DNA of 64,000 nt from Alloprevotella tannerae ATCC 51259 (GTDB taxonomy: Bacteria > Bacteroidota > Bacteroidia > Bacteroidales > Bacteroidaceae): contig NZ_GG700642.1 of NCBI RefSeq assembly GCF_000159995.1, positions 1,134,242 to 1,198,241 of the forward strand. The letters run 5' to 3'. Position numbers and translations under genes: made by a program. Positions within the stretch are counted from its first letter, which is position 1. Every line of letters begins with the position of its first letter. Positions 25,774 through 52,014 of the stretch are shown here, one piece after another. The notes under the pieces were generated by a model. The model was not told the DNA's origin, did not search any database, and saw nothing but the letters and a program-made list of their open reading frames with translations.

Positions 25774-25857
25774 CGTTTGCTCGGGCCAAACGATGGTTTG
25801 GTGGCAGCAAACGATGGTTGGGTGCGAGCATACTATCGTTTGCCGGCAGCAAACGAT
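25774..25857 (+). repeat. 21-bp intergenic array, family R21, locus 1 (four units)
   Basis: Four contiguous 21-bp units: 25774-25794, 25795-25815, 25816-25836, 25837-25857. Each is of the form nGTTTG-N7-GCAAACGAT or a degenerate version. The GTTTG/CAAAC arms make every unit a dyad. Homologous four-unit arrays occur at 39187-39270 and 51931-52014. The gap 25588-26126 holds no credible gene; open frames through the array encode heptad repeats and are a by-product of the 21-bp period. Confidence 0.85.
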
Positions 25858-26126
25858 AAATGAAGCAAGGCTAAGGCCTACTGAAGATGAGCATAGCAAC
25901 GAACTATTCCACGCGTTGCAGACGAAGCCGGCGACAAGGCGAAGGGTAAATCAGAAGGAAGAGATAACGCGTGAGAACGAGTCCTTCACAGCAGGATGTT
26001 TAAGAAGCAAAGCCCTCGCCGGCCGCTTGCAACAATGCGACGGAAGACTTCGGAATGGCCGCCAACAGACCGGCAGCTAAGATCGCGGGGACAAGCAAAC
26101 CGCCCCAACGATTCTACTTTTGAGCA

Positions 26127-26164
26127 CAAAAAAAGCAGGAGCAATGCTTGCGCTGCGCTCCTGC
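26127..26164 (-). terminator. Terminator of fhs (minus strand)
   Basis: On the minus strand GCAGGAGC (26164-26157) pairs with GCTCCTGC (26042-side arm at 26142-26135), followed by seven T (plus-strand A-run 26128-26134). It faces the tlpA-like terminator across the R21 array. Confidence 0.85.
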
Positions 26165-26209
26165 AATCTTTTGGATCTGTATATCGAAAATTCGAATTGT
26201 TGCTCTTTG

Positions 26210-27877
26210 TTATGATAGTCCTTCAATCACACCATCTACCACGTAGATGCGCTCTGCTTGCGGACTCTTGGGCAATCCGGGCATACGCATAATACTTCCG
26301 GCTACGGCAACAATCATTTCGGCGCCGGAATTTATGACAAAGTCGCGAATCGTTATGTCGAAATCTTTCGGCATGCCGTATGCTTTCGGGTCTTCCGAGA
26401 AGGAATATTGCGTCTTCGCGATGCAGACGGGGAAATGCTCGATGCCCAACTCGCGAATGCGAGCCAACTGCTTCTTGGCAGCAGGCTTGAGGATTACGTC
26501 CTTTGCGCCGTAAACTTTCTGGCAAACCTTGCGCACCTTCGTTTCGATGTCGTCTTCATCTTCATACATAAAGGTGAGCGGACGAGAAGGATTTTTCTCG
26601 ATCGTTTCCACGACGAGGCGTGCCAAATCTTCAGCTCCCTTTCCACCATCCGCAAAGGCAGTGTTGATGGCAAAGCCCACGCCCAACTCTTCGCAATGGC
26701 GGCGAACGAGATCAAGTTCTTCGTCAGTGTCGGTCGGGAAGCGGTTCAAGCATACTACGACAGTCTGGCCGAAGGCCTTGATGTTCTCAATGTGCTTGTC
26801 CATATTAGCCAATCCGCGCTTGATGCCCTCGAGGTTAGGCGTCTTGATCTCCTTCTCATCTACACCGCCATGCATCTTCAGTGCAGGCGCCGTAGCTACG
26901 AGTACGGTCAACTTGGGAGAGAGTCCGGCCTTGCGACACTTAATGTCGAAGAACTTCTCCATACCTAAGTCTGCGCCGAAGCCTGCTTCAGTAATGGTGT
27001 AATCGCCAAAGGTCATCGCCATTTTTGTAGCGAGCACACTGTTGCAGCCGTGGGCGATGTTGGCGAAAGGTCCGCCGTGGATAAACGCCGGTGTGTTCTC
27101 CGTCGTCTGCACTAAATTCGGGTGAATCGCATCGTGCAAGATAGCGACGATTGCGCCCGCCACGCCGAGATCTTTTACCGTCAAAGGTTTTCCATCAAGC
27201 GTCACGCCGAGCACAACGTTTTCTATACGGCGCTGCAAGTCAGCTTCGTCTTTTGCCAAACAGAAAATCGCCATAATTTCTGAAGCCGGCGTGATGTCAA
27301 AACCGCCCTCGCTCATTACGCCGTCCGTTCTGCTGCCCAGTCCGGTGATGATATTGCGCAAATTGCGGTCATTAACGTCTAAGACTCTGCGCCAAAGAAC
27401 TTCGCGCATACCGAATCCTTCCTCGCGACGTTGATAAATATGATTGTCAAGCAAGGCCGCGATCATATTGTTAGCAGAAGTAATCGCGTGGAAGTCGCCC
27501 GTGAAGTGCAAATTTATTTTCTCCATCGGCAATACTTGGGCATAGCCGCCGCCGGCTGCACCGCCCTTCATTCCGAAACAAGGGCCCAGCGATGGTTCTC
27601 GCAATGCGGCGATCGCATTCTTGCCTATCCTGTTCATACCTAAAGCCAGACCGACGCTGACCGTGGTTTTGCCATTACCGGTTTTGGTTGGCGTGATCGA
27701 AGTGACCAAGATCAGATTCGATTGTTTTACCTTCGCCTCGTCAATCAGCGTATAAGGCACCTTGGCTATGTATTTGCCGTAAGGCTCTAAAGCCGTCGTC
27801 GGCACGCCGATTGATTCAGCTATTTCTGTGATGGGTTTGAGCGGCGTTTCTCTGGCTATCTCAAAATCAGTCTTCAT
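26210..27877 (-). CDS. fhs: Formate-tetrahydrofolate ligase
   Basis: 555 residues, full length. Motifs: the ATP loop [69 protein letters not shown] and the folate/C-terminal region [18 protein letters not shown]-dependent synthesis of 10-formyl-THF for purine and one-carbon metabolism. It has its own promoter and terminator, so it is monocistronic. Confidence 0.96.
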
Positions 27878-27916
27878 TCTAATGTGTGTTTAACGTGTTT
27901 TGGGTTAATAATGGCA

Positions 27917-27948
27917 CAAATATAGTGGAATAGTGCAGGAAACACAAA
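27917..27948 (-). promoter_or_regulatory. Promoter of fhs
   Basis: Minus strand TTTG (27948-27945), 20 nt, TATATTTG (27924-27917); leader about 33 nt. Confidence 0.75.
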
Positions 27949-27960
27949 ATTTAGACACGG

Positions 27961-27999
27961 AAAAAGGCGGACGAAAAAGCACTTTTTTCGTCCGCCTTT
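27961..27999 (-). terminator. Terminator of the second outer-membrane receptor
   Basis: GGCGGACGAAAAA (27966-27978) pairs perfectly with TTTTTCGTCCGCC (27984-27996). On the minus strand it is followed by TTTTT. It separates the receptor gene from fhs. Confidence 0.8.
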
Positions 28000-28109
28000 C
28001 AAATAGAAATCTAAGCGACTTAAACTTTGCGACCACTCTATCCTTTTACAAACATTTTGAAAGCATAATTTATCAGGCTGAAAGTTTGCGCTTGTTAAAC
28101 GAAGACGGA

Positions 28110-28277
28110 TCAGCGTGCGATGCGCAGGCTCGCCAAGCGCTTCCCGCTTCGGTTGTAAGCCACCGCCACGCAGATGCCGGCCGGCACGTCCCGCAACGAA
28201 ACGCCCTCCTGCCCAGCTTCGATCTGCCGCATCAAGCGCCCGCAACCACACATTGCGCCAACGCCCGCACCAAGTCC
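28110..28277 (-). other. Possible gene remnant downstream of the receptor stop
   Basis: The minus-strand frame of the receptor continues after its TAA (28280-28278) for about 55 codons to TGA at 28112-28110. It ends ...VPAGICVAVAYNRSGKRLAS plus a basic tail. That end resembles the short C-terminal sorting segments of Bacteroidetes secreted proteins. It may be debris of such a gene, a readthrough extension, or chance in GC-rich sequence. An internal ATG at 28253 would give 47 residues. The rest of 28000-28277 shows nothing else. Confidence 0.25.
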
Positions 28278-30617
28278 TTACATACGATTACGCTGCGCCG
28301 AGCCGGCAGAACTTCCTTTGTATTTGCTGGAACTCGTATTAAATTTATAGCGCAGCGTGATAGAAAAATTGCTCATACTATAAATATGTTGTTTCGCAGT
28401 ATACTGCGCACCCGAATAAATCCTCCCATAATTATCGCCCGTGCCAAAGAGATCATACAAGTAACACTCAATGGACAGTTTGTTTTTCAAGAAAGATTTA
28501 TACCAAGACAAGGACGTGCAGAAATAAGGCTTGGGATTATATCCGTTATCTTCATTTCCCGTCGTCTGGAGCGTGGTTATAAGGCGCCAATAGCCCCATT
28601 TCGTATCAAAAGCATTATCTATCCGTAGCGTAGCTTGGGCGCGATAAAGCCCCACATCAAAAGGCGTAGGCATATTAAACCATTGTTTGGTCACTGTGGC
28701 GCGAAATTGTGGATGCCAAATGCCTACAACGGGCTGCAAAGTCGCCGACAGAAACAAACGATCTGCCTTCGGGCCGTTTTCGGGTCGATTCAGCATAATC
28801 TCGGGGTTGTTCTCGTAAGATCTCATCATAGTCAGTAGCGGGTCGGTCAAATGCAGATAGATGGCGTTAAAGAGTAGCCATTTATACGACAAAGTCAGCG
28901 ACAAGTTGCGACTGATTGCAGGCACAAGAAATGGGTTTCCCGTCTCGTACGTATAGCGGTTGTCATATTGAATCCCACTTCCGAGCATATAATAAGGTGG
29001 TCTTTCGATATCCGCCCCATAGGAGAGCTGCGTTTGTAGCTTTCCGAGCGGCATAGACAGCGTAATGGAGGGAAAAAGGTTGTTGTAGATGCGACTTTGT
29101 TCCGCCACGCGGACACCGGCATTGTAATAATTGAAGTCTACGTGCTCGTAGCGCAGGCCAAGGTTTACATCGAGCGGGCCGAAACTGCGTCCATATTCGG
29201 CAAAGGCCGAGCTATAATATTCCCTGAACTGATTATGAGTCTCCGGTATCAAGCCTACGGGCAGAATGGTGTAATCTGTCAAGCGGCGTGTCCCGGAATA
29301 TTCGCCGCCGACGGAGAGAGATCCCTCCCAAATTGGCGCAGTCAGAACCAGCCTTGAAGCCAGTAGTTTGTTGTCAGTCTTAGTTTGCGTTTTCACTTCA
29401 TTCTGCTGCATCACGCCACCGGCCGGCGTAAACTGTTCTTGCGTTTCAAGCGCATCGCGCTGATTTTTCTGCCACCAATCGCCGCTCCAGTCGATCATAA
29501 GGGGGCCGATTTTACCCACATAATACAAGCTGCTCCCCCACGAGTGCTCAAAACTTCCTGCCCCCTGCTCTAATTTGCCGAGACCGGTTTCAACCAGCGC
29601 GCCGTTTCGCCTTATTTGGTTACTTTGAAGAAAGGACATCGATGGACGATCCGGTAAAAAAGTCAGACGCCCTCCGATAGAGTGGTCGGGAGCTATCTGA
29701 TAAGCTGCAGAAAAATTTGTATCAAATGCTTTCGCGCTGTTATGCCCGGAGATAGACAGAGACTGTTGCCAGGTATGCGCCAAGTAAGCATCCAATTCAA
29801 ACCATTTCTCACTATAGTTGTCATAATCATTAGCCTCCAAGTACCAGTTTAGATCCAAGCGCTTCTTTCTATAATTCAGCCCCACGCGCGTCCACTCGTT
29901 CCACGTGCCTTTTTCATTGACATCAGCGTGCAGGCGAGCATCTACGGCCCACCCCTCGCCGAGCGGCTTTTTCGTAGTGATGCGTACGACGGCTTTCGTA
30001 GCCGCCGGATAGCGTGCACCGGGGTTGAGAATCGTTTCTACGTCTTTGATGTTATCGGGTGTGAGTCGGTCCAACTCACTTTTGTCTCTCATCTTCCGAC
30101 CATTGATATAGATCAAAGCTTCGCCGCGGCCGAAGACGACGACTTTGTCGCCCTGCACACTGACATTGGGGATACACTCTAAGAGTCGTTCTATCGTAGC
30201 ATTCTTTTCGAGCACCGAACCGGCCACGATGGTTTTCAGCCCCTCGCCTTTGACCAACACTTTGGGGCGCTCTGCGCGCACGACGGCTTCTCCCAGTTGG
30301 CTGTCGGCATCTTGCAGCACAATGCGGGCCAAGTCCTGCGGTGTGCAGGCGCGATACTGCGCGGCGTAGCCAAGGCCTGTGATTTTTACAGTATGATTTC
30401 CAACCGGTATGTCCAACCGGAAATGCCCATCCTCGCCGGTTGTTGTCCCCACGACAAAAGCCGAATCGGGCAAGGTCAAGATACTGATGTTTACATAAGG
30501 CAGTCCCACGCCTTGCGCGTCAGTGACGCGTCCGTCGATGCGTTGCGCAAAAAGAATGGCGAAGTGACAGCAAAACAGGATCAGGCAGCAGGCGCTGCGA
30601 AGGTTTCTATATTTCAT
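28278..30617 (-). CDS. Outer-membrane beta-barrel receptor with carboxypeptidase-regulatory-like N-terminal domain (second copy type)
   Basis: 779 residues from ATG 30617 (MKYRNLRSACCLILFCCHFA, then ILFAQ, signal peptide); an ATG 45 nt upstream is rejected as non-homologous. A CarboxypepD_reg-like domain (25-105: IDGRVTDAQGVGLPYVNISI) and a plug-like segment (ATIERLLECIPNVSVQGDKV; VVFGRGEALIYINGRKMRDK) precede an OMP_b-brl_3-type barrel. The barrel ends NFSITLRYKFNTSS..., with 19 further residues beyond the last strand. Transport substrate unknown. Paralogous in design to the gene at 5779 but not closely similar. Its promoter spacer contains a nine-base G tract. Confidence 0.85.
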   Translation of the reverse strand: MKYRNLRSACCLILFCCHFAILFAQRIDGRVTDAQGVGLPYVNISILTLPDSAFVVGTTTGEDGHFRLDIPVGNHTVKITGLGYAAQYRACTPQDLARIVLQDADSQLGEAVVRAERPKVLVKGEGLKTIVAGSVLEKNATIERLLECIPNVSVQGDKVVVFGRGEALIYINGRKMRDKSELDRLTPDNIKDVETILNPGARYPAATKAVVRITTKKPLGEGWAVDARLHADVNEKGTWNEWTRVGLNYRKKRLDLNWYLEANDYDNYSEKWFELDAYLAHTWQQSLSISGHNSAKAFDTNFSAAYQIAPDHSIGGRLTFLPDRPSMSFLQSNQIRRNGALVETGLGKLEQGAGSFEHSWGSSLYYVGKIGPLMIDWSGDWWQKNQRDALETQEQFTPAGGVMQQNEVKTQTKTDNKLLASRLVLTAPIWEGSLSVGGEYSGTRRLTDYTILPVGLIPETHNQFREYYSSAFAEYGRSFGPLDVNLGLRYEHVDFNYYNAGVRVAEQSRIYNNLFPSITLSMPLGKLQTQLSYGADIERPPYYMLGSGIQYDNRYTYETGNPFLVPAISRNLSLTLSYKWLLFNAIYLHLTDPLLTMMRSYENNPEIMLNRPENGPKADRLFLSATLQPVVGIWHPQFRATVTKQWFNMPTPFDVGLYRAQATLRIDNAFDTKWGYWRLITTLQTTGNEDNGYNPKPYFCTSLSWYKSFLKNKLSIECYLYDLFGTGDNYGRIYSGAQYTAKQHIYSMSNFSITLRYKFNTSSSKYKGSSAGSAQRNRM

Positions 30618-30745
30618 TTTATCTTGGTTCTCAATCTCCTCAAAGGAGAAAAGGTTAATCAAAGTGCGTTTTATGGTGCATTAAATCAAGCGAATAGCCA
30701 TCGGCGTTTGCCTTTCGCAAATCGTCAATAGTCTTTTCGCGCCTG

Positions 30746-30775
30746 CAAAGTTAATAATCCCCCCCCCGATACAAC
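30746..30775 (-). promoter_or_regulatory. Candidate phase-variable promoter of the receptor gene
   Basis: Minus strand: TAACTTTG at 30753-30746 is a perfect -7 box. Upstream, GTTG (30775-30772) is the best -33 candidate (consensus TTTG), with an 18-nt spacer of which nine bases are an uninterrupted G run. Other promoters in the window use 19-20 nt, so gain of one G would bring this one to the usual spacing. Confidence 0.5.
30759..30767 (+). repeat. Homopolymer C9 tract
   Basis: Nine consecutive C (G9 on the coding strand of the receptor) inside the -33/-7 spacer. Such tracts are prone to slipped-strand changes. Confidence 0.95.
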
Positions 30776-31004
30776 TATTTTAACAAGAAAATTTCATCTT
30801 CCATCGAGAAAATCGGCAAATTGAAACCCGCAAGTGCCATGTCTTTTGATCCGTAACAAGATCTGCTCTATCTGCATACGGCATTGCTCGTCTACAAGTT
30901 CACCTCCGATTTGGTAAGGTTGACAAATGGAGCGTGCGCAACTTTATTTTTCACCGTTTATGCCGCCTTTTGCAAGTCACTAAGATTGGGCGCTACCCTT
31001 TTTT

Positions 31005-31090
31005 ATCACGACAACAAAGGTTTGCGCTCACGATAAAAAGCGTGTGCGCTCGTGAGAGAAAAGGTTTGCGCTCGTGATAAAAAAGGAAGC
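31005..31090 (+). repeat. 22-bp intergenic array, family R22, locus 3
   Basis: Units 31005-31026, 31027-31048, 31049-31070 and a partial to about 31090. Each is [CA]TC[AG][CT]GA[TCG]A-run followed by GGTTTGCG or a variant. The surrounding region 30780-31248 has no credible gene. Confidence 0.8.
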
Positions 31091-31806: not shown

Positions 31807-31865
31807 GAATATTACTTATAAGAGGTGCGTAAAACAAGCGTTCGGCTATAAAAACCTTAGACGAC

Positions 31866-37108: not shown

Positions 37109-37117
37109 TTGCTGCTT

Positions 37118-38998
37118 ATGCGTAGTTTGCTTTTCCTTCTGTTTAGTTTTTACGTTTGCTGCGCGCGAACGGCGCCGATTGATTCGCTCACGGCGCGGCA
37201 AACGGCGCAAGCTTTTTTCCGCAAGGCTTTATCTCTGAAAACGATGCAAAGACCGCTTTTGCGCCACCAAGCAAAAGCGACCTATCTTTTCTCACTCGGC
37301 GATCATTTTATCTTGACGGCTGCCGACGATGCTTTACCCGAGGTCATCGGCTATGGGCGCTGCCGCGACGGGCACTTGCCGCCGGCACTCAAGGACTTGA
37401 TCCACGATTATGATCGAGCACTCCGCCTCCACGCGCTTCGCTCTGCAGCGCCTATGCGCCCTACTGCGTCTCCGCCTCATCGGACCGTTGCGCCCTTGCT
37501 GCAAACGATTCGCCACCAAGAAGCACCTTTCAACGCGCTATGTCCTTATTATTTACAAGATGACGGCACACTTTCTTCGGAAAGATGCATTGTGGGCTGC
37601 GTGGCAACGGCTTTGGAGCAGATCGTGGCGCACTATAAGCGCCCCATCTCTTTGCTTGAACCGCTCCGAGGCTGGTCTACGCCGCACTACACCGTAACTG
37701 ACGTCGCGGCGGGCTCGCAAGTCGACACGCAACATATATTAGATGTCTACGATGATCAATCTTCGCCGGAGGCCTGTGCGGCGGTGGCCACGTTGAGCTA
37801 TTGGTTAGGACTGGCCGTCCACATGAAATGGGGACTAAACGCAAGCAGCGCCAACTCGCAGCGGGCTGCCGAGCCGCTACGCCGCAGTTTTGGTTGGCAA
37901 TACGTACATTATGTCGATAGTTATCGCTATGCGCCGGACGTGTGGCTGCCTATGCTTTACCGCGAACTTGAAAGCGGGCGGCCGATCTACTATGCGGGGA
38001 GCACGATGCGCCTCAATGGTCACGCTTTTATCATAGATGGCGTGGACGAAGCCGGACGTTTCCACGTTTTGTGGGGATATGGTGGGCAGTATGATGGTTA
38101 TTTTGACCTGAACGTCTTATGTGCTGCCGCACCGGCCTATGATGTGCAACCTGATGACGAGGTTAACGGTTTCTTCTGCAACCAAGAGGCTCTCCTGCTC
38201 CACCCTGACGCGCAGCAGGTCGCAATGCCCGATTCGCTGGAGCGGACAGGGAGCGAGATTGTCGTCGACTCGATTCGCTGGGAGGCTGCTCCGCGCGTCG
38301 GCACTTATACGCCGCTTCGCCTTTATGTACACAACGCCGCTCCGCACGCACTCACCACGCCCTTGGTCTTGTTTACGAATTTGCAAACTGATACAGCCGC
38401 CATTCAACAAGGCGATTTTATCGGCCTTACGGGGCTTTCGCTCGAAGCGGGGGCGCAGCGTGAACTCCTTGTTCACGTGCGGGCTGACGCCGGAGGCCAA
38501 CGTTTGTTGCGCATCACGCAGGACGGCGTCAGTTGGCGCAATTTGGAGAGTACGAATATTTTGCCGGCCGTCGCGGCCAACTTAAATTTTGAGCTTTCAG
38601 CACCTACTTTTCTTTCGGACCACGCCGTGCGCTTCGTCCTATCGGCTACGGCCGGCGACGAGCGTGTGGGTGCGCTTATCACCTACGAACTTACGGCGAA
38701 GAGGGAGCGGGAAGGCACGCGCCACGGGCGCTATCTCTACGTAGCAGCAGGCGAAACGGCGCAAGACACGGTGCATTTTCAAGGCCTAAAAGCGGGCGAG
38801 CCTTACACGCTGTCTGTTCGCTATCCTTGGGCAGTTGTAAAACAAATCAGTTTCACAATGCCTACGACAAGCCTCGACCCAATTCACAAAGCGCAGGACG
38901 CGCCGGCAAAATGGATTGATACGAATGGGCGCGCCGCCGACGCTCCACGACAGCGCGGCGTATACATTTATCGCGGGAAGAAAGTATTTCGGCCCTAA
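37118..38998 (+). CDS. C10 family cysteine protease (streptopain/interpain-like), secreted
   Basis: 626 residues. A signal peptide (MRSLLFLLFSFYVCCA) and a Spi-like inhibitory propeptide (about 25-120; TARQTAQAFFRKAL, YLFSLGDHFILTAADDALPE) precede the papain-like core. Nucleophile Cys161 lies in RCIVGCVATALEQIVAHYKR and His302 in LNGHAFIIDGVDE, followed by FHVLWGYGGQYDGYFD. Beta-rich C-terminal domains (about 370-590) end in a short tail, GVYIYRGKKVFRP, like other secreted proteins of this lineage. Probably released or surface-bound and activated by propeptide removal; degrades host proteins by family analogy (PrtT, interpain A). Confidence 0.9.
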   Translation: MRSLLFLLFSFYVCCARTAPIDSLTARQTAQAFFRKALSLKTMQRPLLRHQAKATYLFSLGDHFILTAADDALPEVIGYGRCRDGHLPPALKDLIHDYDRALRLHALRSAAPMRPTASPPHRTVAPLLQTIRHQEAPFNALCPYYLQDDGTLSSERCIVGCVATALEQIVAHYKRPISLLEPLRGWSTPHYTVTDVAAGSQVDTQHILDVYDDQSSPEACAAVATLSYWLGLAVHMKWGLNASSANSQRAAEPLRRSFGWQYVHYVDSYRYAPDVWLPMLYRELESGRPIYYAGSTMRLNGHAFIIDGVDEAGRFHVLWGYGGQYDGYFDLNVLCAAAPAYDVQPDDEVNGFFCNQEALLLHPDAQQVAMPDSLERTGSEIVVDSIRWEAAPRVGTYTPLRLYVHNAAPHALTTPLVLFTNLQTDTAAIQQGDFIGLTGLSLEAGAQRELLVHVRADAGGQRLLRITQDGVSWRNLESTNILPAVAANLNFELSAPTFLSDHAVRFVLSATAGDERVGALITYELTAKREREGTRHGRYLYVAAGETAQDTVHFQGLKAGEPYTLSVRYPWAVVKQISFTMPTTSLDPIHKAQDAPAKWIDTNGRAADAPRQRGVYIYRGKKVFRP

Positions 38999-39186
38999 AA
39001 CGTCCGACTAATCGGGCCGCATCGATGCAAATGCGCACGAGGCGGCCGCCAATCGTAATCAGACAATAAGGCGAGCGAACGAGGACGACCGGCGCTGCTT
39101 CAGCCGACGTCAGCGTGCACCCCACGAGAAGCGACCTTTACGTTGTCAGTCCGCGAAACTATTTCGCCGCAATCGGCATTCGTCAT

Positions 39187-39270
39187 CGTTTGGTGCCGGC
39201 AAACCATCGTATGCTGCCAACAAACCACAGTATGCTGCCGGCAAACGATGGTTTGGCCCGAGCAAACGAC
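39187..39270 (+). repeat. 21-bp intergenic array, family R21, locus 2 (four units)
   Basis: Units 39187-39207, 39208-39228, 39229-39249, 39250-39270. The second and third have GTATG instead of GTTTG on one arm, the rest of the unit (GCCGGCAAAC or variants) being conserved. The interval 38999-39438 otherwise appears non-coding. Confidence 0.85.
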
Positions 39271-39438
39271 GCTCCGCATTGGTCGGCTAATGACAAAATC
39301 TGTCTTCTGCCTCAAAAAGTTGACTTTGCGGCCCGTCGAAACAAGACAAAGCAAACCCGCAGCGCACCGGAAGCGATACAAACCCCACGGGCGGCAAAGC
39401 CAAGTGGTTTGTATTTGATAACTAAAAAGAAAATAACG

Positions 39439-39849
39439 ATGTCAAAACAGATAGCCATCACCACGCGCTTGGTGACGCGAATCGACAACGAGGAGGAAAT
39501 CATTGAGCAAGCTGTAGACGGACTGCTCGATATAGGCCCTGAGAATCATATGTTGCGCTTTACGGAGCAAGATCAACAGACGCAGGTGCACCTACTCGTA
39601 TCTGAGGAGCGCGCACAGCTTCGCAGAAATGGAAGTTTCAGTTCGGCGATGCGTTTTACCCAAGGCGGGCGCTTCGAATCTACGTATCAGACGCCCCACG
39701 GTCCGCTGCAGATGCACGTAGTCACGAAACAGTATCATACAAAGCACGATACCGAAGGCGGAACATTGGAAACGGCGTATGAACTTTACCTCTCCGGGCG
39801 CTTCATTTCCCACGACAAACTCCTTATTACTTGGAAAGTATACAAATAA
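39439..39849 (+). CDS. DUF1934 (calycin-like, YwiB-type) protein
   Basis: 136 residues from ATG 39439; the much longer in-frame extension upstream runs through the R21 repeat array and is rejected. The sequence alternates as in a beta barrel: KQIAITTRLVTRIDNEEEII, LRFTEQDQQTQVHLLVSEER, AQLRRNGSFSSAMRFTQGG, YELYLSGRFISHDKLLITWK. Assignment to DUF1934 is by pattern. Cytoplasmic, no signal peptide, function unknown. Confidence 0.65.
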   Translation: MSKQIAITTRLVTRIDNEEEIIEQAVDGLLDIGPENHMLRFTEQDQQTQVHLLVSEERAQLRRNGSFSSAMRFTQGGRFESTYQTPHGPLQMHVVTKQYHTKHDTEGGTLETAYELYLSGRFISHDKLLITWKVYK

Positions 39850-40462: not shown

Positions 40463-41104
40463 ATGAAACAGTATTACTATGTAGATGGGAACAACCAACA
40501 GCAAGGCCCCATCGACGCAGCACAACTCCCATCATTCGGCGTCACGACTAAGACGCTCGTATGGTGCGAAGGGATGGCCAACTGGCAAGCTGCGGGAGAA
40601 ATCCCCGAGTTAGCGTCTTTCTTCGCTGCGAAGCAACCGGAAATTCCGGCACAACCGCAGATGCAGCCGGGAACTCCGGCACAGCCGCAAATGCAACCGG
40701 GAACTCCGGCACAGCCGCAAATGCAACCGCAAGCACAACCGCAAGTACAACCGCAAACAATGAACATTAATAACTTTCAACAAACACAACAACCAATGAA
40801 CACACAACCTCCTTTCCAACAACCCAACAACCAACAAATGCCTCCCCAACCGGACAACTACTTAGTCTGGGCTATTCTGGTTACAGTTCTTTGCTGTCTG
40901 CCTTTAGGTGTGGCTTCTATCATTTATTCTGTAAAGGTTGGTTCACTTTATGCACAAGGTGACTACAACGGCGCTGTAGATGCTTCTCAGAAAGCAAAGA
41001 AATTTGCGATGATTGGCGGTATCGGTGGCCTCGTCTTTATTATTATCTACGTTATCTTTATGGTTATCGCCGGCGCTGGCGCTGCTATGAGCGGTATGCA
41101 ATAG
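40463..41104 (+). CDS. GYF_2 and CD225-domain membrane protein (copy 2) with Pro/Gln repeat linker
   Basis: 213 residues. Same design as copy 1: GYF_2 domain at 1-52 (QQGPIDAAQLPSFGVTTKTL, VWCEGMANWQAAGEIPEL), CD225 region at about 132-213 (LVWAILVTVLCCLPLGVASI, YSVKVGSLYAQGDYNGAVDA). The linker (about 58-130) is expanded and Pro/Gln-rich, with a 10-residue unit AQPQMQPGTP repeated twice and partly a third time, encoded by near-perfect 30-bp repeats (about 40650-40740). Linker length may vary between strains. Ends at a bidirectional terminator. Confidence 0.85.
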   Translation: MKQYYYVDGNNQQQGPIDAAQLPSFGVTTKTLVWCEGMANWQAAGEIPELASFFAAKQPEIPAQPQMQPGTPAQPQMQPGTPAQPQMQPQAQPQVQPQTMNINNFQQTQQPMNTQPPFQQPNNQQMPPQPDNYLVWAILVTVLCCLPLGVASIIYSVKVGSLYAQGDYNGAVDASQKAKKFAMIGGIGGLVFIIIYVIFMVIAGAGAAMSGMQ

Positions 41105-44135: not shown

Positions 44136-44203
44136 ACTACATCAGATTTTTCTGCGAAAGTAATCAAAATTCAGTGAGCAGAAGCTCCCCATTGGGCTAT
44201 TTC

Positions 44204-44285
44204 TTCTCACGAGCGTAAGCCTTTTTCATCGTGAGATGAAACCCTTTTTATCACGAGCGCAAACCTTTTTTCTCGTGATAAAAAA
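44204..44285 (-). repeat. 22-bp intergenic array, family R22, locus 4 (minus orientation)
   Basis: Full units 44258-44279, 44236-44257 and 44214-44235 read on the minus strand as ATCACGAGA..., CTCGTGATA..., CTCACGATG..., plus partial ends. It lies in the divergent gap between the LTA-synthase-like gene and tamB. Confidence 0.8.
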
Positions 44286-44476: not shown

Positions 44477-47400
44477 ATGGAAAAACGCCGTATCGCAAAG
44501 CGCATTATGCGCATTTTCGCTTGGATAGTCTTGACGCCCATTGCGTTATTTCTACTCTTAGCCATCCTGATCTACATTCCGCCCGTCCAGCAATTTGCCG
44601 TAGACAGAGCGGCGCAATACCTTACGAAAAAAACGGGCGTGCGGTTTAACGTAGAGTCTGTGCGTCTGGCCTTTCCTTTAGACTTAGCCATTCACAACGT
44701 GACGGCCGTAGAGCACAACGATACCCTACTGGCCGCGGGTTCGCTACGCCTCAACGTGGCGCTGCTTCCGCTCTTCGACGGGCGGGCCGAAGTGGACGGC
44801 ATAGCCTTATATCGTGCGCAAGTAGATACGAGAAACTATATCGGCGGCGCACACGTCGCGGGCCGAATCGGGGCATTGCAGGCTTCGGCCAAGGAGATCG
44901 ACTGGGTGAAGCGGAAAGTCATCGTAGACTATGCCGACTTACGCAAGTCTGATGTCGTCGTTTGCCTCTCAGATACGGCGATGGACGACACGACGAAAGT
45001 CAAAGCGCAATGGGAAGTGAGCGTGGGTCGCGCCACGCTGCGACAGACGAAAGCGAAAGTGGCACTAATGGCCGCCCTACCCCAAGCTCGAAAGGGTAAA
45101 GGCAGTTTGCTTGAGCGCCTACCGGCCACTTATCAGCCCAAACAAATGTGGTTGGCAGCGGATATTGCACAGGCAGCATTAAAGGGCGGCACTTTCAACA
45201 TGAAAACCGGCCGTTATGCCCTTCGCTCCTTTGGCGTAGAAAAAAGTAAATTGGCCTATCTGAACCAAGCGCCGGACGGCGTGTGGACGCGCAACCGACA
45301 ATATCGCCCCATACCTGCGGCGAAAGAACGCTCACTGCGCGATTCGATACGCGGCGCCTACACTTATCAAGACAATATCAAAGGTTTGCAAGCGTGGCAG
45401 CCCTTTGCGGCTTTCCCAAAGGGAGGCGGCGCAAGCGATATGGCGACTTGGCTGCGCAAAGGCAAGCCCTTGGACCCGAACGATATAGCCTTGCAGGACG
45501 TATTCCTGCAAATCGACACGCTGACTTACACCGAAAACGTATTGAACGCCAACGTAGCCCACGCGGCCTTTGTCGAGAAGTGCGGTTTGCAAGTGAAGCG
45601 CATCAGCGGGCCGATCTATATGGATCAGCAACGCCTCATTTTGCCCAACATGGCCCTGCATACGGCGCATTCTAAAGTATCTATTGGTCTGCGTTTCCCA
45701 TTGTCGACCTTCGATCCCGATAGTCGGACGAAGATGACGCTGCACTGCGATGCCCAACTGGGGTGGCAGGACGTAAAGAACTTGGGACGAAGCTACGTGC
45801 CGCGCGACTTGCTGCGCGTCTATCCAAAAACGACGCTTCGCATAAAGGGCGATTTTAGTGGGAATCTGCGGCGTTTTGCTTTCGGAAATACGACGTTGGA
45901 ACTGCCGGGCTTGATCCGCTTGCAAGCAAACGGTACTTTACTGAACGTGGCATCAACGCAACGCAGCGGGGCGATTAACATCCGCTCGCTGACAACGGGC
46001 GCCGGACTGCCGCGCTTGTACAAACAGCTCGCGCCTTCGGCTGCCGGCAGCGTAAAATTGCCCAACAGAATGCAGGCTTCGGGACGCGTCAACTTCAAGG
46101 GGGATAATTATGGGTTTGATCTGCGACTGGCGGTAGGGCAAGGGCGACTGTCGGCAAAAGGCAAGATAGATTTGCGTGCACAAAGTTATACGGCCGACCT
46201 GCAAGCTCAACGCTTCCCGCTGAAAGTCTTCCTGCCGACGATGGGATTAAATGATTTCTCGGGACACATCGTAGCAAAAGGAAATGGATATGATTTGATC
46301 TCGGGCAAGGCTCAACTGAAAGCTGACGTAAGCATCAACCGGTTCGCCTATGGCGGCTACGACTTGAGCGGACTCCGCTTCCAAACTTTGCTAAAAGGAC
46401 ACAAGGCGCTCTTTGAAGCAGCCATAAACAACGAGATTGTCAAAGGTGATGTGAAGGCAGAGCTTATGTTGGAACGCTTAATCAGTATTAAGGCGGATGC
46501 AAACATAGAGCAGGCGGATCTGCGCCGCTTGAACGTGACGACTGATACGCTCTCGGCGGGCGGGCAACTGCACTTATACGCATCAACTGACCGCCAATTT
46601 AAGCGGATTTCAGCCAATGGCATCGCGGATCACCTGTTTGCGGTCTCTCCATCGCGAGGTTTCTCGACGGATGATATACACTTCAACTTCAAAACGGGTA
46701 CTGACTCGACGATGTTCAGGATCAATAGTGGCGACCTGCGGTTGCTGCTGGCGACGAAAGGCGACATCAATCGCCTCACACCGCGTCTGGCGCGACTGGG
46801 CACGCTACTGACAAAGCAGATAGCCGATCAAAAATTGGACCAAGAGGCTCTTAAGCGCGAATTGCCCGTAATGGATCTGCACTTAGAAGCAGGGCAGAGT
46901 AACCCGATTGGGAACTTCCTGCATTTTAATGGCTATACATATAATAAAATATACGTCGATCTGCACGCGAATCCGACGGCGGGCGTCTACGGAACGGCAT
47001 CTGTAGGGCGCTTAAGCAACGGGGGACTGCTCTTAGATACGATTTACGCAAACCTTAGTCAGGACACGACGGGCGTACGTATGGAGGCATTTGTGAAAAA
47101 CTATACGAAGCGCAATCCGAATAAGTTTGAAATACGTGCGCAGGGCTACTTGCTCTCGTCAGGGGCGGGATTGATGGCGCAATTCTACGACAACGATGGC
47201 GAAAAGGGCATCGATCTGGGACTAAAAGCCGACTTGGTCGAAAACGGACTGAAGATTATGATCTCGCCGGAACATCCGGTGCTGGCTTATCGCAACTTTA
47301 CGGTCAATAAAGACAACTATATTTTCTTCGGAAATCAGAAGGAAATTCGCGCTAACGTGGACTTGCTGGCGGACGATGGGACAGGCGTGAAGCTATACAG

Positions 47401-49324
47401 TGCTCCGGGCGATTCGATTAACGACATTGCACTCTCGATTAACAACTTAAACCTCGGAGAACTGTCGACGGTCTTGCCGTATCTGCCAACTATGGGCGGA
47501 AAACTCTCGGGTGATATTCATATTTTGGATAATCATAAGACGTATAGTGCGATGGCCTCGCTCCAAACGAGCAATTTCACATACGCCGGTACGCCTCTCG
47601 GGTCGCTGGGGGCGGAGTTGATGTATCTGCCAAAGGAGAAAGGAGAGCATTATGTGGAGGCTTACGTCTCTACCAACGATGCTGAAATGTTGTCGGCCAA
47701 AGGTACGTATGCAGAAACGGAAGGCGGTAGTTTTGACGGAACCGCTACGTTGGAGGGATTCCCGCTACTCTTCTTCAATTCTTTCCTCGACGGGACGGAA
47801 ATTGCACTGCGCGGAAAGGCCAATGGGTCTGTGGAAATCAAAGGCCCGCTGACGCGGCCTGCAATTAACGGCAGTTTGACGCCCGATTCGGCACATATCG
47901 CTTCGGAAGTGTATGGGTTTGATTTCAAACCGGAACAACAGCCGATCCAAATTGTGAACTCCAAGATCACATTTGCGAATTACCAACTCCTATCGACGGG
48001 CGAAGCGCCGCTTGTCTTGAACGGCAACGTGGATATGACCAACCTCTCGAAGGTATATCTGAACTTGGGACTCAAGACGGAGAACTTCGAACTCATCAAT
48101 ACGCGCCGCAAAACTAAGTCTTTGCTCTTCGGAAAGGTCTTCTCTGACATCAATTGCACCATCAAAGGACCGGTCGACGGCTTATCTGTGCGCGGCGATC
48201 TACGTATTTTAGACAAAACGGATCTTACATACATTCTGCGCGATTCTCCGTTGACGGCAAGCAATAGCTTAGACGGACTCGTGGAGTTTGTAGACTTTAG
48301 CGATACAACTAAAGCCGAAGCCGCTACAACGCCGGACTACGGCGTCAATATGGTGCTCGGCATAAACATAGCTGAAGATGCGAACTTCCATTGTCTGCTT
48401 TCGGAAGACGGGCAAAGCTATGCCGACCTCCAAGGTGGAGGCTCGCTCACTTTCCGCTATACTCCGTCGGGCGAAATGCGCTTAGTGGGTAAGTTGACGG
48501 CAAAAGATGGGAAAATCAAATACGAATTGCCCGTCATTCCGTTGCGCACATTCGATCTAAAAGAGGGAAGTACGATCACATTCACGGGAGATCCAACAAA
48601 TCCCACCTTAGATATAATAGCCACAGAGCGGATGAAGACGTTCGTTAGTTCGGATGAGCAACGCCGCGCCGTAGTCTTCGACGTCGGACTCAAGCTTACG
48701 AAGCCCCTTGATCAAATGGGCTTGGAATTTACGATTGAAGCGCCCGAAGATTTGGCTGTTCAAAACACGCTGGCATCAATGAGTAAGGAGCAAAGAAGCA
48801 AGGCCGCGGTGGCGATGATGGCAACCGGTATGTTCATAGCCGACAACGCCTCCGCCGGTTCTGGTTTCAAGGCCAACAATGCATTGAATGCTTTCTTGCA
48901 GAATGAGATTCAAAGCATCGCCGGCAAAGCTTTGAAGACCGTAGACATTAGTTTGGGAGTAGAAACCGGCACTTCGTCGGTCGGAACTGTCACAACCGAC
49001 TACTCTTTCCAGTTCGCGAAGCGCTTTTGGAACGATCGCATCAGCGTTATCATCGGCGGCCGCGTCAGCGCGGGAAAAGAAGCCGACAACAGCGCTGAAA
49101 GTATCATCAACAATGTCAGCATAGAATACAAAATCAACCCGGGCGCCACCCGCTATGCCCGCATTTTCTACGAGCGCGACACAACAGATCCGCTCGAAGG
49201 CTTACTCACGAAAACCGGCATCGGTTACTCTGTGCGCAAAAAGACGGATCGCTTCGGCGACTTGTTCATCTTTTGGAGGAAAAAGTCCAAGGATCAACAG
49301 CCGACATCGAAGAAGAAGCAATAA
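44477..49324 (+). CDS. tamB: TamB-like translocation and assembly module protein
   Basis: 1615 residues from ATG 44477 (MEKRRIAKRIMRIFAWIVLT); an open extension of 52 residues upstream overlaps the promoter and repeats and is rejected. One N-terminal membrane helix (about 10-35), an AsmA-like start (LTKKTGVRFNVESVRLAFPL), a very long beta-helical middle, and the C-terminal DUF490/TamB domain (about 1150-1580; EFTIEAPEDLAVQNTLASMS, VDISLGVETGT, ITVIIGGRVSAG-like end). It spans the periplasm and works with the BamA-family partner encoded 22 nt downstream in outer-membrane protein insertion or lipid transport. Confidence 0.9.
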   Translation: MEKRRIAKRIMRIFAWIVLTPIALFLLLAILIYIPPVQQFAVDRAAQYLTKKTGVRFNVESVRLAFPLDLAIHNVTAVEHNDTLLAAGSLRLNVALLPLFDGRAEVDGIALYRAQVDTRNYIGGAHVAGRIGALQASAKEIDWVKRKVIVDYADLRKSDVVVCLSDTAMDDTTKVKAQWEVSVGRATLRQTKAKVALMAALPQARKGKGSLLERLPATYQPKQMWLAADIAQAALKGGTFNMKTGRYALRSFGVEKSKLAYLNQAPDGVWTRNRQYRPIPAAKERSLRDSIRGAYTYQDNIKGLQAWQPFAAFPKGGGASDMATWLRKGKPLDPNDIALQDVFLQIDTLTYTENVLNANVAHAAFVEKCGLQVKRISGPIYMDQQRLILPNMALHTAHSKVSIGLRFPLSTFDPDSRTKMTLHCDAQLGWQDVKNLGRSYVPRDLLRVYPKTTLRIKGDFSGNLRRFAFGNTTLELPGLIRLQANGTLLNVASTQRSGAINIRSLTTGAGLPRLYKQLAPSAAGSVKLPNRMQASGRVNFKGDNYGFDLRLAVGQGRLSAKGKIDLRAQSYTADLQAQRFPLKVFLPTMGLNDFSGHIVAKGNGYDLISGKAQLKADVSINRFAYGGYDLSGLRFQTLLKGHKALFEAAINNEIVKGDVKAELMLERLISIKADANIEQADLRRLNVTTDTLSAGGQLHLYASTDRQFKRISANGIADHLFAVSPSRGFSTDDIHFNFKTGTDSTMFRINSGDLRLLLATKGDINRLTPRLARLGTLLTKQIADQKLDQEALKRELPVMDLHLEAGQSNPIGNFLHFNGYTYNKIYVDLHANPTAGVYGTASVGRLSNGGLLLDTIYANLSQDTTGVRMEAFVKNYTKRNPNKFEIRAQGYLLSSGAGLMAQFYDNDGEKGIDLGLKADLVENGLKIMISPEHPVLAYRNFTVNKDNYIFFGNQKEIRANVDLLADDGTGVKLYSAPGDSINDIALSINNLNLGELSTVLPYLPTMGGKLSGDIHILDNHKTYSAMASLQTSNFTYAGTPLGSLGAELMYLPKEKGEHYVEAYVSTNDAEMLSAKGTYAETEGGSFDGTATLEGFPLLFFNSFLDGTEIALRGKANGSVEIKGPLTRPAINGSLTPDSAHIASEVYGFDFKPEQQPIQIVNSKITFANYQLLSTGEAPLVLNGNVDMTNLSKVYLNLGLKTENFELINTRRKTKSLLFGKVFSDINCTIKGPVDGLSVRGDLRILDKTDLTYILRDSPLTASNSLDGLVEFVDFSDTTKAEAATTPDYGVNMVLGINIAEDANFHCLLSEDGQSYADLQGGGSLTFRYTPSGEMRLVGKLTAKDGKIKYELPVIPLRTFDLKEGSTITFTGDPTNPTLDIIATERMKTFVSSDEQRRAVVFDVGLKLTKPLDQMGLEFTIEAPEDLAVQNTLASMSKEQRSKAAVAMMATGMFIADNASAGSGFKANNALNAFLQNEIQSIAGKALKTVDISLGVETGTSSVGTVTTDYSFQFAKRFWNDRISVIIGGRVSAGKEADNSAESIINNVSIEYKINPGATRYARIFYERDTTDPLEGLLTKTGIGYSVRKKTDRFGDLFIFWRKKSKDQQPTSKKKQ

Positions 49325-49346
49325 CTGACAAAGTTTATAACGACTT

Positions 49347-51836
49347 ATGGCTTTTAAGCACCTATTATTTCCCATCCTGCTCCTCCTTTTGGCCTGTTCC
49401 TGCTCCACGACGAGCCAACTGCCCGAAGGCGAACAGCTCTATACCGGCATCAAGAAAACCACTTACACGCAAGAGCCCGCAAAACCGTCCAAGGTAAGGC
49501 GAGATTCCGTCGGCGTCATCACGACGATCTCCGACGCCGTCAATGCTATCGACGACGCACTCTCAGGCAAGGGCGGTTTAGGCGCACTTTCAAACCTTAA
49601 GCAATCAGATTCAGCACAAGCAGAAGCTGCTCGCGCAGCCGCCAAAGCTGCATCGCACAAACAAGAAGTCACGAAAGCCGCCTTAGAGACAGCCAAGGAA
49701 GAGGTCGAAGCCGTGTTGGCTTATCCGCCCAACAATGCCCTGTTTGGTTCCTCTTATCATAGCTCGCCTTTGCAACTGGGTTTGTGGGCCTACAACGCCT
49801 TTGTGAAGTCGGAGACCAAGCTGGGTAAATGGATGTTTAAGAGTTTCGCCACGACGCCCGTACTTATCACGAGCGTTAGTCCGGATATACGCGCCAAAGT
49901 GGCGCAAAACACGCTGCGCAATTATGGTTTTTTCAGCGGCAAGGTCAATTATGAAATCCGTCCGGAGAAGAATCCAAAGAAAGCGAAAGTGGCTTACGCC
50001 GTACAAGTTGGCCCTTTGTCGCTGCTCGACTCCATTACTTATCTTTCTTTTCCGCCCGCACAGGACAGTTTGCTGCAAGCGACGCACAACAAACGCCTAC
50101 TCCGCAGCGGAGATGCTTTTTCCGCTGTTCGACTGACTGACGAACAAGCGCGCATCAGCAAACTCTTTCGCAATGCGGGCTATTACTATTGGCAGGACAA
50201 CTACACGACGTTTCAGGCCGACACACTGGCACGCCGCCAACTCGTACAACTACACGTGCAGCCCTCGCCGGCGATTAACAAGAGAGCACTTCGGCCGTGG
50301 AAAATTGGCGAAACGCACATCACCGTGAGGCGTTACGATTCAGAAATACTCGAAAGGACAAAGTCAAAGCGCTTCTTCACGTTCAATTATTCCGGCAAAC
50401 GCGTCCCCTTGCGCTCATCTATGTGGCGACAGGCCGTAACTCACAAACACGGCGAACTATATCGCTACGACGACCAGCGAAGTACGCTTGAGAAGCTCAA
50501 CAACATCGGCGTGTTCCGTCTGTTAGACGTAGAATATATCCCGCAAGACACGACCGATCTTTGCGATTCGCTCGACCTTTATGTAACCGCTGTGCTCGAC
50601 AAACCTTATGATTCAAACTTCGAGATGAATGCTACGCTCAAGAGCAACCAGCAGATAGGTCCGGGAATGAGTTATGAACTGAGCAAGAACAATGCTTTTC
50701 GCGGCGGCGAACGCATTTCGTTCAAAATATTTGGCTCTTACGAATGGCAACTTCGCACCGGGACGGAACGAAACAGTTCTTTTCTCGATTCTTATGAGCT
50801 CGGCTCGCAACTGGCCTTCCATTTTCCGCGCATCTTCTTCCCCGTCATCTCCAAGAAGCGCCTGCGCTTCCCTGCCGAAACGACCTTTGCGTTCGATACG
50901 GATTGGAAAAAGCGCACCAGCTTCTTCACTTTGATCAACGCCGGCATCAGTGCCAAATATGCTTGGCACAAAAAGCAGAACGCCCTGCACGAACTCGTCC
51001 CGCTAAGCATTGATTTCAACAAAGTATTATCCTCTTCCCACGCCTACGACTCGATTCTCGCGGCCAATCCGGCTTTAGCCGTATCTATGCGCAACCAGTT
51101 TGTGCCGGCTATGTCTTATCTCTTCACTTATAGTTCGGCGGCTCACCACCGCAATCCCGTAATGGTGCAAGTCTTGGCCAAGCAAGCCGGCAACCTCACG
51201 TCAGCTCTCTACGCCTTAGCGCGCAAACCGTTTAACCAACGCGACAAGAAGATGTTTGGCTCTCCCTTTGCGCAATTTCTAAAAGCTACGGCAGAGCTAC
51301 ATTATACGTATAAAATCAACAGTTCGCTCAAATTGGCCACGCGCCTCTACGGCGGCATCCTCTACGCTTACGGCAACAGCACGCGCGCACCTTATTCCGA
51401 ACAGTTTTATGCCGGTGGCGCCAACAGCGTCCGCGGTTTTGCGGTCCGCAGCATCGGGCCGGGCACATACAAGGCCGACAATTCAAAATATGCTTACATA
51501 GAACAGACGGGCGACGTCAAACTGGAAGCCAACGCCGAACTGCGGGCGCACCTCTTCGGCAGTCTTTACGGCGCGCTCTTCTTAGATGCCGGCAACGTGT
51601 GGCTGCTCCACAAAGACCCGCAGCGGCCGGGCGGCGAATTCAACTTGCGCAACTTCAAGCAGATCGCCGTAGGCACAGGCTTAGGCTTGCGTTACGACTT
51701 AAGCTACTTGGTGCTCCGTTTCGACCTCGGCGTCGGACTCCACGCGCCCTATGCTACGAGCAAGTCGGGCTTTTACAACATCGACAAGTTTCGTAACAGC
51801 CTCGTCTTCCACTTTGCCATCGGTTATCCTTTCTAA
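49347..51836 (+). CDS. tamL: TamL/TamA-like BamA-superfamily outer-membrane lipoprotein
   Basis: 829 residues. A lipoprotein signal peptide (MAFKHLLFPILLLLLACSCS; lipobox LLAC) replaces the ordinary signal of enteric TamA, as in the Bacteroidetes TamL type. An Ala-rich helical insert (about 55-120) precedes POTRA-like domains, then a 16-strand barrel with YAGGANSVRGFAVRSIGPG (the VRGF-type lid loop) and a C-terminal NSLVFHFAIGYPF ending in Phe. Forms the outer-membrane half of the TAM system with TamB. Tightly linked operon. Confidence 0.88.
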   Translation: MAFKHLLFPILLLLLACSCSTTSQLPEGEQLYTGIKKTTYTQEPAKPSKVRRDSVGVITTISDAVNAIDDALSGKGGLGALSNLKQSDSAQAEAARAAAKAASHKQEVTKAALETAKEEVEAVLAYPPNNALFGSSYHSSPLQLGLWAYNAFVKSETKLGKWMFKSFATTPVLITSVSPDIRAKVAQNTLRNYGFFSGKVNYEIRPEKNPKKAKVAYAVQVGPLSLLDSITYLSFPPAQDSLLQATHNKRLLRSGDAFSAVRLTDEQARISKLFRNAGYYYWQDNYTTFQADTLARRQLVQLHVQPSPAINKRALRPWKIGETHITVRRYDSEILERTKSKRFFTFNYSGKRVPLRSSMWRQAVTHKHGELYRYDDQRSTLEKLNNIGVFRLLDVEYIPQDTTDLCDSLDLYVTAVLDKPYDSNFEMNATLKSNQQIGPGMSYELSKNNAFRGGERISFKIFGSYEWQLRTGTERNSSFLDSYELGSQLAFHFPRIFFPVISKKRLRFPAETTFAFDTDWKKRTSFFTLINAGISAKYAWHKKQNALHELVPLSIDFNKVLSSSHAYDSILAANPALAVSMRNQFVPAMSYLFTYSSAAHHRNPVMVQVLAKQAGNLTSALYALARKPFNQRDKKMFGSPFAQFLKATAELHYTYKINSSLKLATRLYGGILYAYGNSTRAPYSEQFYAGGANSVRGFAVRSIGPGTYKADNSKYAYIEQTGDVKLEANAELRAHLFGSLYGALFLDAGNVWLLHKDPQRPGGEFNLRNFKQIAVGTGLGLRYDLSYLVLRFDLGVGLHAPYATSKSGFYNIDKFRNSLVFHFAIGYPF

Positions 51837-51930
51837 TCCTGATAACCTGACACCCCCTTTTCAAAAAACAAACGCGCATCCACCGAGCCTTTTCAGCGCT
51901 GCGGAGGATGCGCCGTGCTGCTTCTGCTTT

Positions 51931-52014
51931 CGTTTGCTCCCGGCAAACAATCGTTTGGTGCCGCCAAACCATAGTTTGGTGCCGGCAAACCATAGTTTGC
52001 TCCCACCAAACAAT
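51931..52014 (+). repeat. 21-bp intergenic array, family R21, locus 3 (four units)
   Basis: Units 51931-51951, 51952-51972, 51973-51993, 51994-52014. All four start [CA]GTTTG and end CAAAC[CA]AT, with the middle GnYCC[GC][GC] or similar. It is the cleanest copy of the family. Region 52015-52326 contains no gene or clear promoter. Confidence 0.88.

Follow-up and report, generated by a model that had tools for sequence, protein, structure and literature searches.

Phased four-unit palindrome arrays with a phase-locked A/T lattice suggest a previously undescribed mode of bacterial chromosome organisation

Introduction

Tandem protein-binding repeats of approximately 20-22 bp that face one side of the DNA helix are familiar from plasmid iterons and from centromeres of the ParR/parC type, which are few per replicon and lie beside their own rep or par genes. 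Here we analyze arrays of a similar period in a 64,000-nucleotide stretch of the chromosome of Alloprevotella tannerae ATCC 51259 (contig NZ_GG700642.1, positions 1,134,242 to 1,198,241; hereafter the window), in which an initial annotation had noticed three intergenic loci of exactly four contiguous 21-bp dyad units. We refer to this family as R21 and to its four-unit arrays, and those of a second family with a 22-bp period (R22-A), as quartets. In contrast to iterons and ParR/parC-type centromeres, quartets of one family number approximately 80-90 in this genome.

Several described chromosomal systems share part of this anatomy; we compare them here as far as the accessible sections of each source describe them. 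Repetitive extragenic palindromes (REP) and their RAYT transposases resemble the quartets in being short intergenic palindromes in many copies, but their spacing is free and the orientation of dimers is mixed, whereas quartets have a fixed 21- or 22-bp phase, a nearly fixed number of units and no RAYT link that we could find (PMC3733652). The BrickBuilt miniature inverted-repeat transposable element (MITE) of Porphyromonas gingivalis likewise consists of intergenic direct repeats of about two helical turns (23 nt) in a member of the Bacteroidales, but it comprises 1 to 22.8 repeats, has a leader and a tail with inverted ends, and is represented by 19 elements (PMC4596501). Regulators of the Lrp/AsnC type bind clustered palindromes that are spaced by two or three turns, share one face of the helix and are accompanied by wrapping of the DNA (PMC2995911), and the LrpC octamer amounts to four dimers (PMC8481266). 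Both R21 and R22-A have this geometry of palindromic sites two turns apart on one face, and the octameric proteins, with their four dimers, spacing and wrapping, provide a precedent for the geometry of a quartet; there, however, the bound regions control regulated genes, while here at least two large families with unrelated motifs stand against one Lrp gene. Finally, persistent A-tract periodicity at the helical period covers most of a chromosome and has been read as a sign of nucleoid structure and DNA curvature, but it is described without a fixed phase origin, four-unit palindrome arrays or locking to them (PMC3940949). A search of titles and abstract openings in the open-access literature, a scope that leaves out most subscription journals, revealed no description of arrays such as those reported here, and the accessible parts of PMC5771137, PMC4060949 and the papers cited above yielded nothing on them.

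Results

All three loci in the window were recovered as 84-bp stretches of four contiguous 21-bp units, but they had been placed one base too early: the first GTTTG of each starts at 25775, 39188 and 51932. Arms of GTTTG and CAAAC, which had been ascribed to every unit, are exact in nine of the twelve; units 39209 and 39230 read GTATG (one mismatch each) and unit 25817 contains two mismatches. The nAT linker is present in ten units and deviates in two. Delimited as four GTTTG-N7-CAAAC dyads joined by NATN linkers, the first quartet occupies 25775..25854, between a thioredoxin-like gene (+) and a formate-tetrahydrofolate ligase (FTHFS) gene (-). The second lies at 39188..39267, between a peptidase C10 gene (+) and a DUF1934 gene (+), and the third at 51932..52011, between tamL (+) and a Dpp7-like/S46 peptidase gene (+). 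All three are indeed intergenic and overlap no conserved coding sequence; the open frame 39115-39849 that runs over the second array is an upstream extension, because the DUF1934 domain is recovered from 39430 onward. Chance does not readily produce such loci: dyads with at most one arm mismatch averaged 2.5 per shuffled window (maximum 6), and tandem dyad pairs at 21-bp spacing were absent from 100 dinucleotide shuffles of the window.

The window belongs to contig C6 of a 2.586-Mb genome in six contigs (G000), approximately one quarter of which was read base by base; a stretch of 464 kb that had not been selected for arrays consists of C5:1-400000 and the window. Genome-wide pattern searches returned 265 two-unit matches (at most two mismatches), 166 three-unit matches (a looser pattern, at most one mismatch), and 90 four-unit and 6 five-unit matches (both at most three mismatches). 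Two-, three- and four-unit matches stand near 3:2:1, as expected of nearly 90 four-unit arrays, with the qualification that patterns and thresholds differ. The six five-unit matches represent four arrays (two of five units and two of six) that supply 10 of the 90, so that some 80 arrays of exactly four units are spread across the genome and the family is not confined to the three sites first noticed. In the unselected 464 kb, four units were counted in 21 of 22 R21 arrays and three in the other. Among 68 arrays that were read, including 40 loci chosen from lists of good matches, 58 had four units, four had three, two had five, two had six and two were scored as "two"; one of the last pair belongs to an array divided 1 + 3, of which it forms the first piece and one of the threes the second, and the other is spurious. 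An R21 array split in this manner is found at L142 2040-3470 (C5 ~710.9-712.4 kb), where an inserted element of approximately 1.3 kb, with GAGACC...GGTCTC-like ends and an apparent 5-bp duplication, separates the pieces. The R21 searches require good arms and would therefore overlook badly decayed arrays; when long gaps of the 464 kb were scanned by lag, independently of motif, no extra lag-21 array appeared at threshold, R21 being present in 20 of 20 lag-21 gaps. The number of units is thus nearly fixed rather than random, as had been proposed, with four in nearly all R21 arrays.

The 232 units of 58 arrays conform to GTTTG-SYSSSRS-CAAAC-NATN. Approximately 2% of arm positions differ, a figure that is partly built in because arrays were found by their arms, and arm mismatches are rarer in the two outer units (0.07 and 0.05) than in the inner ones (0.24 and 0.40). 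Positions 6, 8, 9, 10 and 12 of the centre are G or C in 91-96% of units, in either orientation, and the centre is otherwise scrambled within the S-Y-S-S-S-R-S rule. It also shuns palindromy, with positions 6/12 reading GG in 89 units, CC in 61, CG in 36 and GC in 16. The order of units is not shared between arrays (ordered similarity 16.09 versus 15.98 when permuted), and for lack of this signal copying of whole R21 arrays was rejected. In the flanks we saw no shared terminal repeats and no position-conserved sequence beyond A/T-rich positions. Because unit order carries no memory while arms, number and phase are kept, we infer that selection acts on these three features and that R21 arrays, rather than being recent copies, are either old or maintained independently of each other. 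The same argument, made originally from the three loci alone, that the units reflect selection on their number and helical phasing and not a recent duplication, holds for R21, with its four units, kept arms, free centres and unordered units.

A second family, also of four units, is present in the same window and had gone unmentioned in the initial annotation. It was revealed by a lag scan of the genome as arrays with a 22-bp period, and its unit, R22-A, consists of a TCRYGA core within a GTAC-NN-TCRYGA-NN-GTAC dyad. Twenty arrays were called in the 464 kb, one of which, a five-unit call at C5 189898 that overlaps a gene, was considered spurious and removed; of the remaining 19, 16 have four units and three have three. 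The loci C5 70622, 122917 and 133294, where two or three cores are perfect, failed the calling rule and are not in these counts. Five called arrays fall in the window: quartets of TCRYGA-centred dyads at 22 bp at 5417..5500, 31000..31083 and 44201..44284, the last exceptional in occupying a short gap (~185 bp), an array of three clear units plus degenerate sequence at 16679..16740, and one of three clear units at 63572..63633.

Gap lengths in the 464 kb are bimodal, and quartets of any family occupy 40 of 74 gaps of at least 400 bp versus 3 of 252 shorter ones; 43 of 46 quartets lie within called gaps, never two in one gap. Within their gaps they are centred, with a mean offset of 0.107 of gap length versus 0.203 in simulation (0 of 5000; n=40), and no gap contains both R21 and R22-A (P=0.002). 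The 36 quartets in the 400 kb of C5 have a mean spacing of 10.1 kb and a median of 8.3 kb; the closest two, of whichever called family, are 4.1 kb apart (P=0.001), and spacings below 4 kb number 0 versus 4.3 expected (P=0.003). A region at C5 ~40-160 kb has lower G+C (0.37-0.43) and few R21 arrays, and is possibly an acquired island. The gaps that hold the 22 R21 arrays are tandem in nine cases (seven --, two ++), convergent in six and divergent in five, two arrays overlapping a dubious gene call; for the 19 R22-A arrays the corresponding numbers are 11 tandem, 2 convergent, 4 divergent and 2 undetermined. Compared with long-gap DNA as a whole (59% tandem, 19% convergent, 22% divergent), these orientations revealed no clear preference of either family for promoters or terminators.

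Around the quartets, A/T positions are phase-locked to the array at 21.2/10.6 bp over approximately 1.2 kb per side, reaching into genes. When the 58 R21 arrays were aligned on their centres and the two sides pooled, A/T peaks appeared at 69, 90, 112 and 134 bp and, farther out, at 196, 217, 238, 259 and 302 bp, and left and right profiles correlated with r of 0.4-0.87 in six windows between 44 and 320 bp. Power at 21.2 bp over 140-320 bp was 0.060 versus a null of 0.006 (0 of 1000 random-shift sets). The gap around the first quartet (25524..26209) is an example of the long gaps concerned, the lattice being an average over the population of 58 arrays and not a result for this gap by itself. 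The lattice was also detected around 16 R22-A arrays (P=0.009 for a period of 21.2 bp and 0.043 for the period that fits best), while 28 long gaps with no called quartet gave no peak. R21 and R22-A have unrelated motifs, and their A/T profiles correlate with r=0.49 unshifted (P=0.005) and 0.86 at +2 bp. Among eleven 106-bp windows from 60 to 1226 bp around 55 arrays, nine reached P<=0.02 (the exceptions are 696-802 and 908-1014), and left and right phases fell at 3.7-11 of 21.2 bp in all 17 windows up to 1862 bp. Coding positions alone (42 sides) gave P=0.01, 0.007, 0 of 300 and 0 of 300 out to 1.26 kb, and 0.52 beyond.

The 464 kb as a whole contain a sharp, kilobase-coherent A/T line at 10.6-10.65 bp, with a power in 2-kb windows of 2.4-2.9 versus a scan median of 1.1-1.3 (A/T was scored here, not A-tracts). 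Kilobase-coherent periodicity was also present in three relatives (G171; G082, 10.55 bp; G125, 10.8 bp) of which 40-100 kb were read, and in G015, G128, G099 and stretches of other genera such a line was absent or weak. In G125, whose arrays have a different motif, the lattice is locked to those arrays up to 440 bp (8 distinct arrays, P 0.005 and 0.01). The A/T period of 10.8 bp in contig C2 of that genome (L172, L194-L198) is very sharp and coherent over several kilobases.

The layout of the arrays is conserved and their sequence is not: other species of the genus carry 21- or 22-bp arrays built from other palindromes. The R21 motif itself is nearly private, being numerous in its own genome alone among 58 genus genomes; divergent relatives of it account for 19 matches in G099 and 7 in G141, three other genus genomes have one match each (at most three mismatches), and three exact R21 units occurred in 5 stretches of 84,980 species genomes, the own genome left out. 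This host range of exact GTTTG units is so narrow because lineage specificity is a property of the motif and not of the layout. A scan of lags 13-33 over 280 kb (some masked) of 11 genus relatives gave 12 hits at lag 21, none at lag 20, one at lag 22 and at most five at every other lag, although at least three of the 12 (L160 3112, L173 12765, L177 12167) look like coding sequence or simple repeats. In four relatives scanned over 100 kb each, lag 21 yielded 7, 4, 1 and 13 hits (some coding-like), and lags 19, 20 and 22 yielded none. The palindromes employed include ATCCATGGGAT (G171), TCTCSGAGA (G125), AATAAGG/CCTTATT (G015) and CCTCAGAGG (G128), as well as GTNNCAC-N4-GTGNCAC with NATN linkers at 22 bp (L221) and GTGGCAGGCCTTGCCAC (L255), the last two near FTHFS and tamL orthologues. 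Outside the own genome, unit number is often four by eye; of 77 pooled arrays, several are probably coding false positives (e.g. L096, L238, L257, L263). Sixteen stretches from other genera yielded seven hits at lag 22, three at lag 24 and 0-2 at other lags; among the lag-22 hits, TGTGCCA-N6-TGGCACA was found four times in G275, and at least one of the seven (G024) is a simple 11-bp repeat.

Three further ideas about these arrays were tried and set aside. Flanks of FTHFS at 30 loci gave 12 hits at lag 21, 5 at lag 22 and 8 at the remaining lags 15-29 together, and flanks of tamL at 30 loci gave 9, 2 and 6, several of the lag-21 hits being coding-looking; by eye, arrays at these orthologues were not clearly commoner than the general density, and a conserved position there was rejected. 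Spread to phages was rejected on a single, coding-looking match in viral contigs. A coding repeat (21 bp being seven codons) is disfavoured by the 22-bp families and by intergenic position. A 21-bp array of many near-identical GTTTC-N7-GAAAC units at a contig end in another genome (G519:C3:66195-66358, L218) is possibly coding.

Discussion

Since number, phase, placement, exclusion between families and the A/T lattice fit together, we favour the explanation that the quartets are phase-setting anchor sites of nucleoid architecture, bound by a putative protein, and give it a probability of approximately one half. What is observed in this genome is how many units an array has, how they are spaced, where arrays lie, that families exclude each other, that arms are conserved and that the A/T lattice is phase-locked; a binding protein, bending or wrapping of the DNA and organisation of the chromosome by quartets are what we infer from them. 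Of the roles listed in the initial annotation, a chromosome-organisation site is thereby best supported, by placement, exclusion and lattice, whereas a REP-like element is not. Each quartet would present eight half-sites on one helix face within approximately 84 bp of DNA, and a putative oligomeric DNA-binding protein (four dimers' worth) would sit on it and set the rotational phase. The quartet would be a centre of symmetry, with DNA extending outward on either side as mirror images, across the gap and approximately 1.2 kb into the genes; every 10.6 bp this DNA would bend toward the protein or a superhelix axis, and at every second turn the contact would be stronger. An anchor of this kind would stand in a long gap roughly every 8-10 kb in the 400 kb studied, and the motif families (R21, R22-A and others) would share one job and exclude each other.

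A broader proposal, which we advance tentatively and consider well short of probable, is that these Bacteroidales chromosomes carry a chromatin-like lattice in which quartets are bidirectional nucleation points of a DNA-wrapping filament with a two-turn repeat. Coding sequence would be tuned to this lattice by selection or by lattice-shaped mutation, and, much as centromeres do, quartets would keep their geometry (four dyads at 21-22 bp) but change their recognition sequence between lineages. If geometry is preserved and sequence can be exchanged, it is understandable that homology searches miss these sites. Taken together, the observations suggest that a bacterial chromosome may be organised in a manner not described before. 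The sites offer a handle on chromosome folding in the Bacteroidales, since they supply an origin of phase, a spacing of ~8-10 kb in the stretch studied and bait with which to find the protein, and codon choice near quartets is predicted to follow the rotational phase of the DNA.

A number of results weigh against the anchor-site explanation. No quartet-binding protein emerged from the analysis. Gene calls came from a simple script, and thresholds as well as several windows were chosen while looking at the data, so that some P values are optimistic. Regular spacing found no support, either for R21 alone (coefficient of variation 0.94 versus 0.87 simulated, P=0.68) or for all families (0.75 versus 0.78, P=0.49), the deficit of close pairs being the sole significant departure. 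Quartet and lattice can evidently be uncoupled, because G015, G128 and G099 carry quartets without sharp periodicity in the 60-100 kb read. In G125, locking beyond 440 bp was not significant, and among its controls (10 windows, periods 9.7 and 11.9) one gave P=0.026 and one 0.05. Around arrays of G099, locking was significant at 60-140 bp (0 of 500) and absent at 140-320 bp; no significant lattice was obtained from two pools of arrays from other species (24 and 8), whose centres are imprecise; and four arrays of G171 were not significant except in one window at P=0.04. Unit number also loosens elsewhere, with 4-8 units in arrays of G125 (a loose count) and many in one array of G519. Finally, the 13 loci of G099 are approximately 80-100% identical over ~96 bp while their flanks are mostly unrelated, as for copied elements.

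The G099 family, which looks copied, and the rapid turnover of motifs make a miniature mobile element the strongest rival, one that we nevertheless consider unlikely. On this account the arrays are selfish elements whose four units form the core needed by a transposase or recombinase, and families rise, spread and decay, leaving species-specific motifs. It accommodates the few large families plus singletons within one genome, the fast change of motif between species, the intergenic placement and the G099 loci, of which L052 and L053 are 100% identical over 96 bp and L055, L056 and L059 additionally share 185-214 bp. R21, however, is not copied by unit order, as the similarity values above reveal, yet its arms are conserved at the loci found; shared terminal repeats were not seen in its flanks; and neither an A/T lattice running into genes nor exclusion between families is predicted by such elements. 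Terminal inverted repeats or target-site duplications of the MITE kind were not seen around R21, and no duplication was recognised by eye at the G099 copies. BrickBuilt in particular was rejected, since the period here is 21 or 22 bp, the number nearly four, and R21 flanks contain no leader or tail with inverted ends.

A Y1 transposase was never beside R21-type dyads in the loci read. PF01797 was matched 42 times in 28 of the 58 genus genomes, and none of 30 Y1-transposase loci read, those of the own genome, G099 and G141 included, carries tandem GTTT/AAAC dyads at 21 bp; REP/RAYT was rejected as an identity for the arrays. Four of 29 RAYT loci of relatives hold other 21- or 22-bp arrays (L069, L088, L094 and the coding-looking L096), by eye no more than the general density, and the 232-unit R21 profile shows an NATN linker, the palindrome having neither a GTAG nor a CGTC tag at its foot. 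The single Y1/IS200-like transposase hit of the own genome (L051 1459-1935, G000:C6:839898-840239) lies in 3.3 kb of sequence that, as read, lack R21 dyads. RAYT-type genes in G099 (L078) and G141 (L080) stand, by eye, amid many copies of other palindromes (CCCCTTCGGGG-like and GACGCTGAAAGCGTC-like, respectively) that resemble true REP repeats.

More doubtful still is the idea that quartets are transcription-factor operators, of the octameric Lrp/AsnC type or others, whose four phased sites regulate neighbouring genes. The clustered, phased and wrapped sites of Lrp-type regulators and the four dimers of LrpC, introduced above, lend it plausibility. It loses ground because arrays also occupy convergent gaps, which have no promoter, about as often as long-gap DNA (19%) predicts (R21 6/22, R22-A 2/19). 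The own genome, moreover, has one AsnC/Lrp domain hit (relatives have 0-3) against at least two large motif families, so that one Lrp paralogue per family was rejected, and approximately 80-90 sites per family with species-specific motifs would demand coordinated change.

We regard a role at the RNA level, as bidirectional terminators or mRNA-stabilising hairpins, as very improbable: the R21 stretches of the window do fold better than shuffles (z -5.75, -2.36 and -3.91), but folding of two R22-A arrays is inconsistent (z 0.01 and -2.35), the R21 centre avoids pairing in the counts given above, units complement each other less within an array than between arrays (0.421 versus 0.493; 21 arrays), and both the constant period of two turns and the A/T lattice are features of DNA. 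Equally remote is a decayed minisatellite, a longer 21-bp tract of which the middle four units alone are still recognisable: A/T peaks do go on outward at the same period and G099 flanks have AACTTTT-like words ~21 bp apart (by eye), but decay should leave random unit numbers, the lattice continues in coding DNA, and its positions in R21 flanks show A/T content and nothing else that we saw.

Additional features of the window

Single arrays with further motifs (R22-B to E and R23) occur in the same genome. R22-B, at 12185..12280, has four units at 22 bp of a different motif (TTCCTACC-like). R23, at 56817..56930, is intergenic and has five units at 23 bp built on a CTCCTTATAGGAG dyad; its kinship to the quartets is a guess. 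Matches to curated RNA families at gathering scores in the window amount to two tRNAs and nothing else. The sequence at 37109-38998, adjoining the second R21 array, encodes a peptidase C10 with a Spi inhibitor domain, and 30- and 12-bp repeats at 40633-40757 lie within an open frame and are probably coding.

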